DNA from: Azospirillum sp. TSA2s
GTDB taxonomy: Bacteria; Pseudomonadota; Alphaproteobacteria; Azospirillales; Azospirillaceae
Direction of reading: 5' to 3'
DNA length: 64,000 bases
Assembly: GCF_004923315.1 (NCBI RefSeq)
Contig: NZ_CP039650.1
Coordinates: forward strand, 1,439,501-1,503,500
The notes below the pieces were generated by a model. The model had not been told where the DNA came from. It saw only the letters and a list, made by a program, of their open reading frames with translations, and made no database searches. Positions 46,908-50,643 of this stretch are shown piece after piece; the first letter of the stretch is position 1; the number at the start of each line of letters is the position of its first letter. A program made the translations under genes and the position numbers.

Positions 46908-47548
46908 CCGTCGCCGCCAAGATCTGCGGGCTGAGCGAGCCCGAAAGCCTGCGCGCCGCCGTCGCCGGCGGAGCGCGCTATGTCGGCTTCGTCTTCTATC
47001 CGCGCAGCCCGCGCGCCATCGCCCCGCCGATGGCGGCGGAACTGGCGCGGCTGCTGCCGACCGGCGTTCGCTCCGTCGGGCTGTTCGTCGATCCCGACGA
47101 CGAGTTCCTGGAGCATGTCACCGGGCAGGTCCCGCTCGACCTGATCCAACTGCATGGCGCCGAGACGCCGCGCCGCATCGTCGAGATCAAGGGCCGCTAT
47201 GCCCTGCCGGTGATGAAGGCGGTCAAGATCGGCGGGCCGGAAGACCTGACCACGGCGATGGAGGCGGCGGAGGTCGCCGACCGGCTGCTGTTCGACGCCA
47301 AGCCGCCGGCCAAGGTGTCGGCGCTGCCCGGCGGCAACGGCATCGCCTTCGACTGGACGATCCTGGCCGGCCGCAGCTGGCCGCGCCCCTGGATGCTGTC
47401 GGGCGGGCTGACGGCGGAGAATGTCGCCGAGGCGGTGCGGGTCACCGGCGCCAGCGAGGTCGACGTGTCGTCCGGCGTGGAGGATCGCCCCGGCCACAAG
47501 GACCCGGCGCTTGTCCGTGCCTTCCTGTCGGCGGTGGCCGCGCTTTGA
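46904..47548 (+). CDS. trpF: Phosphoribosylanthranilate isomerase
   Basis: 214 residues. KICGLSEPESLRAAV carries the general-base Cys, FVFYPRSPRAI is the phosphate-binding block, and SGGLTAENVAEAV with DVSSGVEDRPGHKD closes the barrel. It catalyses the third step of tryptophan synthesis. Translationally coupled to pyrF. In many relatives trpB and trpA follow; here the next gene is a diguanylate cyclase after 95 bp, so the rest of the pathway is elsewhere. Confidence 0.95.
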   Translation: MTVAAKICGLSEPESLRAAVAGGARYVGFVFYPRSPRAIAPPMAAELARLLPTGVRSVGLFVDPDDEFLEHVTGQVPLDLIQLHGAETPRRIVEIKGRYALPVMKAVKIGGPEDLTTAMEAAEVADRLLFDAKPPAKVSALPGGNGIAFDWTILAGRSWPRPWMLSGGLTAENVAEAVRVTGASEVDVSSGVEDRPGHKDPALVRAFLSAVAAL

Positions 47549-47643
47549 GGCCGTTTTTCGGCGAAAGCGCCCTGTTTTAGACGAATGCTGCGGCTTATCT
47601 TGGTCGCATGGCGGGACCTTGCGCCGTCGGGTAGGATGCGCCC

Positions 47644-48552
47644 ATGAGCGATTCGACCACTCCGTCCACAACCGAGGCGCTCGGCGCCGTGCTCGACGAG
47701 CATCTGCGCTGGATCGGCCAGTGGCAGCGCGCTGTTTTCTACCGTGAGGGGCGTGGCGGGGAGCGGTCGTCGGCCCCGGCCTCCTTCCAGGCCTGGTGTC
47801 AGGCCGCCAGCCGCGACGACCTGCTGCAGCAGCCGGCGGTGCAGAAGCTGGCGGCCCTGCACGAGCAGATGCACCGGCAGGCCCGGCTGATCCTGCTGAA
47901 GGCGTCCGGCGGCGAGCTGCCGACCGAGGCCGAGTTCGAGGGGGTGGTCGGCCGCTTCGAGGAGTTCATGCTGCACCTGCGCCGGATGGAGCGCGCCTTT
48001 GCCGCCGCCGCCTCCGGCCTGGACCCGCTGACCGGCCTGCGCACGCGGCGCGGCATGGGCGAGGCGCTGGAGCGCGAGCACAACCGCTACCGCCGCACCG
48101 GACAGCCCTTCTGCGTCGCGCTGTGCGACATCGACAAGTTCAAGGGCATCAACGACAGCTATGGCCACGACATCGGCGACCGGGTGCTGGCCGCCACCGC
48201 CGCCGTCATCAGCCGCGGCGTCCGCAGCTTCGACGAGGCCTTCCGCATGGGCGGCGAGGAGTTCCTGGTCTGCCTGAAGGAAACCCGTCTGGAGGAGGGC
48301 TATGAGGTGATCGAACGGCTGCGCGTCGACCTGATGCGCTCGCCGGTGGTGCTGCCCGACGGCCGGATGATCCCCGTCACCGCGTCCTTCGGGCTGGTGG
48401 AGGCGGTGTCCGACCTGACCGTCGACGATCTGGTGGTCTGCGCCGACCGCGCGCTCTATCAGGCGAAGAATTCCGGCCGCAACCGCGTGATCCGCTACGG
48501 CATCGACCGTCCGGAGCCGAAGCCGGCGGCGGCGAAGGCGGGGCGGGGGTAG
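47644..48552 (+). CDS. Diguanylate cyclase with N-terminal CZB zinc-sensor domain (DgcZ-like)
   Basis: 302 residues. The N-terminal domain has H20, C52, H73 and H77 (EHLRWIGQWQRAVF, FQAWC, LHEQMHR), a spacing very close to the zinc ligands of E. coli DgcZ. The GGDEF domain follows from about 128, with GGEEF at 203-207 and an RSFD inhibitory I-site at 194-197, exactly five residues before it. It should therefore make c-di-GMP, with zinc and product inhibition likely. No membrane span. AGGA lies upstream of the ATG at 47644. Confidence 0.9.
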   Translation: MSDSTTPSTTEALGAVLDEHLRWIGQWQRAVFYREGRGGERSSAPASFQAWCQAASRDDLLQQPAVQKLAALHEQMHRQARLILLKASGGELPTEAEFEGVVGRFEEFMLHLRRMERAFAAAASGLDPLTGLRTRRGMGEALEREHNRYRRTGQPFCVALCDIDKFKGINDSYGHDIGDRVLAATAAVISRGVRSFDEAFRMGGEEFLVCLKETRLEEGYEVIERLRVDLMRSPVVLPDGRMIPVTASFGLVEAVSDLTVDDLVVCADRALYQAKNSGRNRVIRYGIDRPEPKPAAAKAGRG

Positions 48553-48619
48553 ATCGACCCTTTCGCGGAAGTCCGGGGCGCCCGTCACTCGTGCTTCACC
48601 TTTGGCGCTCCGGACATAT

Positions 48620-48676
48620 CTAGGGATGACTAGGAAAGTCTAGTTCCTGGCGCTAGACTTCGCTATAAACCGCTAG
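48620..48676 (+). promoter_or_regulatory. CTAG array with dyad and -10 box before the ATPase gene
   Basis: Five CTAG tetramers start at 48620, 48630, 48640, 48653 and 48673. The third and fourth form a perfect dyad GTCTAG-N9-CTAGAC (48638-48658). A TATAAA at 48664-48669 fits a -10, so the dyad would sit between -35 and -10, a repressor-like position. The gene start is 33 bp past the -10. Confidence 0.5.
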
Positions 48677-48701
48677 CTATCGCACGCTTTGCGGAGGTCC
48701 A

Positions 48702-49865
48702 GTGGATCCCTATCGCAATCCATTCGCACCGGGTGCAGGCAGCCGCCCTCCGGAACTCGCCGGCCGATCCGCCATTCTCGATATGGCAAGGATCTCCTGC
48801 GGCCGGGCCGTGAACGGACGAAATGCACGCCCGATGATGCTGCTGGGCCTGCGCGGCGTTGGAAAGACCGTGCTGCTCAATGAGATCGGCCGGAATGCCG
48901 AACGGGAGGGATTGCTTGTCTCCCGAGCCGAGTCTCCGGAAGGGGAAAGCCTTGCACGCCTGATTTTTCCGGAAATGCGGAAAGTCATGAGGTCGCTGTC
49001 GGGCGTGGAGGCGGCAAAGCACCTTGCAACACGCGGTCTCAAAGGTCTGCGAAACTTCGCGTCGATCTTCAAGATCGAGATGGCCGGTGTCGAGGTGGGG
49101 GTGGAGCCTGAACCCGGGCTGGCCGAAACAGGCGACCTCCAGTACGATCTGCCGGATCTGTTCACCTTGATCGGGAAGGCTGCCCAAGCGGCGGGGCGTG
49201 GCTGGCTGCTTCTGATCGACGAGGTCCAATACCTGTCCGACACCGATCTGTCTGCGCTCATTGTCGCGTTGCATCGCACGTCGCAGGATGGCCTGCCCGT
49301 CCTGATGGTCGGGGCCGGTCTTCCGCAAATCGCCCGTTTGGCGGGAGAGGCCAAGTCATACGCGGAACGACTGTTTCAATACCCGTCCGTGGGAGCGTTG
49401 GATCCGGTCTCCGCCGGCCAGGCCGTCGAAAAGCCGGTTCTCGATGAAGACGCCTCGATCACACCGGAAGCACTGCAGGCCATTTATGAGCGAACGAAGG
49501 GCTATCCTTTCTTCATCCAGGAATTGGCCTCGGTCGTATGGGACAATTCGGCGGGGCCGGAAATCACCGCCGCCGATGTCGGGCGTTCCTATGTGGAGAC
49601 ACTCGCACGGTTGGACGAGGGCTTCTTCAAGGTTCGGGTCGATCGCCTGACGAAGGCCGAGGTTCAGTTCGTCAAGGCGATGGCGCAACTCGGCGATGGT
49701 CCCTACGCAATGGGGGACATTGTCAAGTCGATGGGGCGTTCTCAAAAATCCCTGGGACCGGCCCGGGCAAGCATTATTTCAAAAGGTATGGTCTTCAGTT
49801 CCGACCATGGATATCTGGATTTCAGCGTCCCGCTTTTCGCCGAATTCATGCGGCGGCAGGGCTGA
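48702..49865 (+). CDS. AAA/STAND-like P-loop ATPase of unknown role
   Basis: 387 residues, GTG start with GCGGAGG just upstream. Walker A GLRGVGKT near 48-55, Walker B WLLLIDEVQYLSD near 168-180, a sensor-like VLMVGAGLPQ, and a C-terminal winged-helix-like part ending SSDHGYLDFSVPLFAEFMRR. The layout resembles Orc1/Cdc6- or archaeal-ATPase-like families found singly in bacterial chromosomes. Base and codon use are visibly less GC-rich than flanking genes, and its promoter carries a CTAG array, so transfer from elsewhere is likely. No nuclease or other effector gene is adjacent. Confidence 0.75.
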   Translation: MDPYRNPFAPGAGSRPPELAGRSAILDMARISCGRAVNGRNARPMMLLGLRGVGKTVLLNEIGRNAEREGLLVSRAESPEGESLARLIFPEMRKVMRSLSGVEAAKHLATRGLKGLRNFASIFKIEMAGVEVGVEPEPGLAETGDLQYDLPDLFTLIGKAAQAAGRGWLLLIDEVQYLSDTDLSALIVALHRTSQDGLPVLMVGAGLPQIARLAGEAKSYAERLFQYPSVGALDPVSAGQAVEKPVLDEDASITPEALQAIYERTKGYPFFIQELASVVWDNSAGPEITAADVGRSYVETLARLDEGFFKVRVDRLTKAEVQFVKAMAQLGDGPYAMGDIVKSMGRSQKSLGPARASIISKGMVFSSDHGYLDFSVPLFAEFMRRQG

Positions 49866-49992
49866 AAGGCAAAGCCGGCGACTCGTTCAAAGATGGTTCG
49901 GTTCGACGCCCCTCCGGTCAGCCCCCTTGGCCCCGGCCCCCCTGACGCGCTAGGATCGCGATAACCTTACCGTCAGCCGCGATCCGGATTCC

Positions 49993-50643
49993 ATGCGCAC
50001 CCTGCCCGAATTTCCCAACCTGTTCGTCCTCGACCATCCGCTGATCCAGCACAAGCTGACCCATATGCGGAACAAGGAACGGTCGACCGGCGGGTTCCGT
50101 ACCCTGCTGCGCGAGATCTCGCTGCTGATGGGCTATGAGCTGACGCGCGACATCCCGCTGACCACCGAGCGGATCGAGACGCCGCTGCAGCCGATGGACG
50201 CGCCGGTCATCCTGGGCAAGAAGCTGGCGGTCGTGCCGGTGCTGCGCGCCGGGCTCGGCATGTCGGCCGGGCTGCTGGAGCTGGTGCCGTCGGCGCGCGA
50301 GGGGCATATCGGCCTCTATCGCGACCATGACACCAAGCAGCCGCACGAATATCTGGTGAAGCTGCCGCCGGCAGAAGGGCGGCTGTTCATCGTCGTCGAC
50401 CCGATGCTGGCGACCGGCAACTCCGCCGCCCATGCCTGCGACGTGCTGAACCGCCATGGCGTCGACGACGACAACATCCGCTTCATGGCGCTGGTCGCCG
50501 CGCCCGAGGGCGTGCGCCGTTTCCACGAGTCGCACCCGGACGTGAAGGTCTTCACCGCCGCGCTGGACAGCCACCTGAACGAGGACGCCTACATCGTCCC
50601 CGGACTGGGCGATGCCGGCGACCGCATGTTCGGCACCAAGTAA
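49993..50643 (+). CDS. upp: Uracil phosphoribosyltransferase
   Basis: 216 residues. PRPP-binding loop [15 protein letters not shown]-terminal block [20 protein letters not shown] and C-terminal [16 protein letters not shown] are diagnostic. It salvages uracil to UMP. The uracil source could include PsuG activity encoded at 34-35 kb. It is monocistronic, with a terminator 25 bp after the stop. Confidence 0.97.

Follow-up and report, generated by a model that had tools for sequence, protein, structure and literature searches.

The archaeal protein Orc1-2 is a DNA-damage-responsive regulator that binds its own promoter at a non-symmetric ANTTTC element (PMC9738581). It is an AAA+ protein of the Orc1/Cdc6 kind with a winged helix and acts as a transcription regulator on its own promoter, features that it would share with the protein considered here (PMC9738581). 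Unlike the Orc1-2 element, the present site is a six-part mirror array with one-turn spacing, its gene is bacterial, lone and mobile, and the two proteins are likened by predicted fold. BldC, a small MerR-like regulator, forms cooperative multimers on DNA direct repeats; the part of its description used here mentions neither an ATPase nor mirror-symmetric arms (PMC5859096). RepA, a protein of mobile replicons, represses its own repABC operon (PMC4492784). RepA is a ParA-type partition protein encoded in an operon, whereas the gene described below encodes a lone Orc1-like ATPase. The closest folds to this ATPase, over nearly the full length, are those of PABY2304 (2QEN) and SSO1545 (2FNA), archaeal Walker-type ATPases with approximately 15% identity to it. 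To our knowledge, no operator is known for either of them. The CTAG string, which recurs in the array, is also contained in a tryptophan-repressor-like operator.

Operators with helical phasing are a known arrangement, as is self-regulation; it is their pairing with a lone, mobile, Orc1-like bacterial ATPase for which we found no description. Our literature search, in which subscription journals were thinly covered, likewise returned no published account of the ATPase family or of its operator. Here we analyze a phased array in a 64,000-nucleotide stretch of Azospirillum sp. TSA2s DNA (the window, to which all positions refer unless stated otherwise). From sequence comparison and structure prediction, we consider it likely that the array is an autoregulatory operator of the ATPase gene behind it.

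Architecture of the array

A preliminary description of the window had drawn attention to five copies of CTAG within 57 bp. These copies start at 48620, 48630, 48640, 48653 and 48673 and have the spacing reported for them (10, 10, 13 and 20 bp), and two of them form the GTCTAG-N9-CTAGAC dyad, which is exact at 48638-48658 (21 bp). The description overlooked the mirror symmetry of the whole layout and CTATAA as a sixth half-site: CTATAA at 48663-48668 is the right-arm counterpart of the CTAG at 48630 in the left arm, which puts the TA steps at intervals of 10, 10, 13, 10 and 10 bp. The TATAAA behind the dyad is present at 48664-48669, but its reading as a promoter box did not hold, because it coincides with this mirror half-site and neither a sigma-70-like promoter nor a terminator was found in 48540-48760.

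The whole array occupies 48618..48678 (+ strand) and consists of six half-sites in mirror symmetry with a TA-TA spacing of 10-10-13-10-10. The left arm is made up of half-site 1 (outer, CTAG, 48620..48623), half-site 2 (middle, CTAG, 48630..48633) and half-site 3 (inner, GTCTAG, 48640..48643), all on the + strand. The right arm, which is inverted and lies on the - strand, contains half-site 4 (inner, CTAGAC, 48653..48656), half-site 5 (middle, CTATAA, 48663..48668, with the TA of the chain model described below at 48664) and half-site 6 (outer, CTAG, 48673..48676). When 13 arrays from several genera are aligned without gaps (A3), the TA steps of half-sites 1 to 6 fall in columns 5-6, 15-16, 25-26, 38-39, 48-49 and 58-59, respectively, where TA is invariant or nearly so; the alignment serves as an illustration rather than an independent test, because the aligned stretches were picked by the model at a centre gap of 13. 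Half-site 2 reads CTAA in the orthologue of genome G014, which has a CTAG spacing of 20, 13 and 20, and half-site 6 reads CTGG in genome G026.

The inner dyad extends to AAGTCTAG-N9-CTAGACTT (48636..48660, no strand assigned; read from the sequence), with 8-base arms. In a scan for further dyad sites, the 16-base form had a single exact match genome-wide, and the inner 14-base form occurred once more, within a prophage. We also scored the window with a chain model, in which half-sites lie 9-11 bp apart in each arm around one centre. The array scored 29.5 versus 6.2 for the runner-up in the 64 kb, with a training set that included L010, the same sequence as the window's array.

The ATPase gene and its predicted fold

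The gene behind the array (48702..49865, + strand) starts with GTG and encodes an AAA+ ATPase of 387 aa (AAA_16/AAA_22) whose C-terminus forms a predicted winged helix. The GGAGG at 48693..48697 (+ strand), read from the sequence, we take on general grounds to be its probable ribosome-binding site. Structure prediction with 49 sequences gave a mean pLDDT of 91.1. In the predicted secondary structure, the winged-helix region (approximately residues 318-376; 49653..49829, + strand) has helices at 318-329, 337-344 and 348-360 and strands at 364-374; three helices and two strands at the C-terminus presumably represent the winged-helix layout. From the fold neighbours, this region would be the DNA-binding domain of the ATPase.

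The nearest solved folds were 2QEN (Z 22.9, rmsd 4.9, 320 residues aligned) and 2FNA (Z 22.2, rmsd 4.4, 318 aligned). Folds of the Orc1/Cdc6 type included ORC2 (1w5t_A; Z 20.5, 333 residues, rmsd 6.0) and Orc1/Cdc6 on DNA (2QBY_B; Z 19.4, 318 residues, rmsd 6.8). The model thus places the AAA+ core and the winged helix in the Orc1/Cdc6 arrangement, although 2QEN and 2FNA score higher. The fold class is a broad one, with plant NLR and apoptosome ATPases at Z 14.9-18.7, TnsC at 14.3-16.5, and RuvB and MuB also among the neighbours.

A search by sequence returned no convincing solved relative of the ATPase. The Orc1/Cdc6 sequence model TIGR02928 gave 16.1 bits versus a cut-off of 181.3, and Pfam ORC-CDC6-like matched 2 of the 49 family members at E <= 0.001; we therefore did not file the ATPase as Orc1/Cdc6. 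AAA_16 (49.7 versus a gathering cut-off of 32.6) and AAA_22 (35.4 versus 27) both match 49/49 members at E <= 0.001. At the same threshold nSTAND1 matches 12/49, and the window's protein has no match to it. As to a defence function, PADLOC mad8 matches the window's ATPase (E 2.2e-6) and 32/49 members; the matches are weak and confined to the ATPase part (residues 43-215 only in the window's protein).

Conservation of the array upstream of homologues

Three other genomes of the genus contain orthologues with 92-97% identity, and relatives in other genera and classes reach up to 82% identity among the best 80 of 572, which together with loci from the host's family formed the homologue set. We left out L119 (truncated at the gene start), L013 (gene start interrupted) and L014, L017, L019, L023, L026 and L027 (incomplete genes, fragments or a duplicate of L024), and L022 was entered with a shifted start. 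Removal of five near-identical loci (L121, L104, L012, L011 and L020) from 90 gave 85, and the addition of six plasmid loci (L222-L227) gave 91.

The array is kept before the gene in all three orthologues, the outcome on which the operator reading in the preliminary description had been made to depend. In the 100-bp upstream regions of the 85 non-redundant homologues, TA steps were separated by 10 bp 228 times versus 90.8 expected (z 16.5), with further peaks at lags of 20 (z 11.9), 18 (z 9.6) and 33 (z 7.0). In 79 arrays the lag-10 share was 0.092, compared with 0.041 in 632 windows taken from the flanks of these loci. Palindromic symmetry at p <= 0.01 was found in 46/85 upstream regions.

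When the chain model was trained on one half of the regions and tested on the other, 52/91 regions beat all 50 shuffles, 58/91 had p <= 0.02 and 68/91 had p <= 0.1. Only one of the 79 control windows beat all its shuffles; the controls were less AT-rich (0.46 versus 0.59), and each was judged against its own shuffles. Regions with p > 0.1 numbered 15/91 in-sample, L024 among them, and 23/91 in cross-validation. Among five actinobacterial plasmid homologues with 33-37% identity, three had p <= 0.1 in-sample, and L222 and L224 failed.

Across the homologues, the element consists of up to approximately six half-sites spaced 10 bp (often 9 bp) apart in each arm, with a centre of 13-14 bp and a half-site consensus of approximately AnT[TAC]TA[GT][CG]. 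The arm spacings in the 91 regions were 10 (138 cases), 9 (74) and 11 (13), and the centre gap was 13 in 38 regions and 14 in 20. The distance from array centre to start codon had a median of 38.5 bp (10th-90th percentile, 29.5-53) and is 54 bp in the window. Between the host genome (G000) and G026, 4/60 array positions differ, compared with 17/65 positions of the adjacent spacer and 72/1161 of the gene; the smaller number of changes in the array than in the spacer suggests selection.

Judged from these comparisons, the array is a conserved dyad-symmetric site adjoining the gene it would serve, as is expected of an autoregulatory operator. The operator reading of the CTAG cluster is thus largely supported. 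Conservation in orthologues and distant homologues speaks strongly for a multi-site operator with one contact per helical turn, but the notion of CTAG as its essential string was not borne out. The rarity of CTAG is beside the point, because distant relatives have TATAG, TTTAT or TCTAT at the same phase.

The ATPase as the candidate reader

To find further sites in the genomes, we used a profile (R1) built without the window's array and with its three close orthologues. It detected the window's array with E-values of 3.6e-13 (+) and 7.0e-9 (-). In the 8.1-Mb genome it marked three places at E <= 10, namely the array, C9 988378-988431 and C5 136560-136595. In 45 genus genomes (E <= 0.1, with stricter filters), the profile matched 4/4 of those with the orthologue and 0/41 of those without. 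Ten further genomes had a strong profile match at the ATPase promoter in 10/10 cases, where nine of the ten had supplied an array to the model and G089 had not; G086 had one additional weak match (E 0.01). The array is nearly unique in the 14 searched genomes that hold a closely related ATPase. On three plasmids the top-scoring site was the ATPase promoter in each case, clearly so in Pandoraea and Sphingomonas (26.8 versus 11.0 and 13.5 versus 7.2) and narrowly in Stutzerimonas (10.6 versus 9.9, in the training set).

The form of the array also varied with the clade of the ATPase. Clades were set by short peptide patterns that were chosen post hoc. From 79 loci we used the 48 scoring >= 12 (clade I, 12/12; clade II, 12/17; clade III, 22/47; other, 2/3) and left out 31 with weaker arrays. 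A centre gap of 14 was found with 12/12 proteins that have GP[RC]R in the winged helix versus 0/36 others. The base before TA was T in 75/108 half-sites of clade III and in 3/61 of clade I. This co-variation of clade and spacing could stem from common ancestry alone. Profile specificity, the top sites on plasmids and the clade co-variation together make the ATPase the likeliest reader of the array, with shared ancestry weakening the statistics.

A different arrangement would be a real operator read by another, host-encoded regulator, with the ATPase gene as its target only. Binding by the ATPase is something we infer, and the prophage copies described below show the motif at places with no adjoining ATPase gene, both of which leave room for such a regulator. 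However, such a regulator would need to be present in Proteobacteria, Actinomycetota and Planctomycetota as well as other groups, and its site would need to change along with the clade of the ATPase. Within flanks of up to 3 kb, no protein family was common to more than three of the 79 loci, so that a shared neighbour was not seen there, and the 41 genus genomes without the orthologue have no profile site. We consider a host-encoded reader improbable.

If the ATPase reads its own operator, each protomer may contact one half-site through its C-terminal winged helix. Three protomers in each arm would be aligned on one helix face, and the dyad would be the point where the two arms face each other head to head. 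Such an oligomer would cover the start region and repress, or switch in an ATP-dependent manner, its own gene. Regulation is more likely negative than positive, given that the array directly precedes the gene; since no sigma-70-like promoter was found by consensus in 48540-48760, repression through promoter overlap is put forward hypothetically.

Distribution and mobility of the gene

A match to the ATPase was found in 14/82 genomes of the host's family. Plasmid homologues occurred in 119 of 72,556 records, and one of these plasmids carries many integrative-conjugative-element genes. In the window, the array and the gene lie in a stretch (48553..49905, ends approximate) that is flanked by a diguanylate cyclase gene and by upp and is absent from relatives. 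The site is empty in G025 (L192) and others, which have neither array nor gene between these two flanking genes. Because the stretch is missing in other genus genomes such as G025, the gene and the array came or went together, and the gene would move between genomes together with its operator.

Joint presence or absence at one intergenic site would also be expected of a cis-acting site used in movement or replication of the unit, that is, an iteron-like or recombination site that is bound by the ATPase and is not a transcription operator. The fold neighbours Orc1/Cdc6, RuvB, TnsC and MuB and the plasmid homologues, including the one among integrative-conjugative-element genes, are in line with such a role. 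The array, however, lies at a rather fixed distance before the start codon and inside the mobile unit rather than at its ends, and the flanks (up to 3 kb) revealed no conserved neighbouring gene, for example one for a recombinase. The position of the array ahead of the gene favours a regulatory site over an origin role, and we regard a movement or replication site as quite unlikely.

In L202 (G035), L198 (G021) and L207 (G027) the gap before upp is filled by other, different DNA, so this site may be tolerant of insertion. The host genome also has a second ATPase of the family (G000 C10 195827-196978; L024) with 42% identity. L024 and its near-copies in G025 and G004 (L019 and L020) have no recognisable array. 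At L013 (G014 C4), the first codons of the ATPase gene are interrupted by a stretch of approximately 170-180 bp that contains inverted repeats, and part of the start region is present on both sides of this stretch.

Copies in prophage-like regions

The two other places marked by the profile in the host genome do not fit an operator that serves its own gene only and are the most surprising loose end of this analysis. Site one (G000 C9 988378-988431; L006 1486-1539) has five half-sites (10-13-10-10), with a score of 28.4 and an E-value of 5e-8. It overlaps the end of a 117-aa gene upstream of a gene with a partial DNA ejection protein match, and is surrounded by portal, terminase and virion genes. 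Site two (G000 C5 136560-136595; L003 1489-1524) has three half-sites (10-13), a score of 19.3 and an E-value of 0.013, and its setting is a prophage-like endolysin-spanin region. AT-rich viral DNA reaches 18.2 by chance, so site two (19.3) is the weaker of the two. The ATPase may, in the host genome, act also on these two prophage late-gene regions.

We searched for the element in phages more widely. The exact 14-base dyad is present in 58 viral DNA stretches, and one of them, L045 (at approximately 1093; IMGVR_UViG_2846966018_000001), contains the same 72 bases as prophage site one. A phage-wide element was nevertheless rejected: of the four further half-sites, the other 57 stretches show none (56) or one (L043), by a simple count in which L046, at a contig end, was partly visible. 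The exact 14-base dyad is absent from the 41 genus genomes without an ATPase orthologue. With <= 2 mismatches it occurs at 10 places in these genomes, none of them a phased array by eye, and the best chain score at genus loci other than the array-bearing ones was 9.7.

The prophage copies would be accounted for if the operator of a phage regulator had been captured by a host gene, with phage infection switching the ATPase on; the presence of the array in two prophage-like late-gene regions of the same genome is what favours this. Relatives of the phage ejection-like protein, however, lack the array in the 8 loci scored of 12 (best 8.8), the approximately 40 kb around site one contain no second site (runner-up 8.2), and distant homologues of the ATPase across phyla bear the array. 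A captured phage operator is very unlikely on these grounds.

A broader proposition goes beyond the autoregulatory operator, and we offer it tentatively, with more doubt than confidence. These ATPases may be undescribed, widespread and mobile regulators of an Orc1/Cdc6-like kind, which would form a nucleotide-dependent head-to-head oligomer at their own promoter, on a six-part operator with one helical turn for each site, and would take this operator along across phyla; in some hosts they would also act on resident prophages via operator copies in late-gene regions. If this is true, a large and exchangeable bacterial family of Orc1-like ATPases would regulate while bound to DNA, through an operator code that is simple and readable, and the half-sites would show an AAA+ oligomer counted out on DNA. 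Each genome would supply its own test site, so that a protein annotated only as an 'ATP-binding protein' becomes directly testable. It would also imply a possible tie between a mobile ATPase gene and prophage late genes.

A 40% identical homologue (L191, MT837995.1, 1116-2315), outside the scored set, lies in a 5.9-kb record from human faeces titled 'Bacteriophage sp.'.

CTAG composition and RNA folding

CTAG is rare in the window, as the preliminary description had held for this kind of genome; a lack of depletion, which that description had named as telling against its reading, was not seen on this window-only count. Trinucleotide counts predict 62.5 copies, of which 19 are present (O/E 0.30; no tetramer present in the window has a lower value), and shuffled versions of the window contained 63.6 +/- 7.5. 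A genome-wide search on one strand for three CTAGs with gaps of 4-24 gave five matches at three places, and the array accounts for three of these matches.

Pairing of the inner dyad in RNA is conceivable, but a chance cluster or an RNA hairpin has a negligible probability, because five CTAGs fell within 57 bp in 0/200,000 trials with 19 sites placed at random, the RNA fold was no better than that of shuffles (z -0.82), no RNA family matched 47500-50100 at E <= 1, and distant homologues conserve the array. In L015 and L016, two TTATAG-N10-CTATAA dyads stand in tandem upstream of the gene, perhaps as a double operator.
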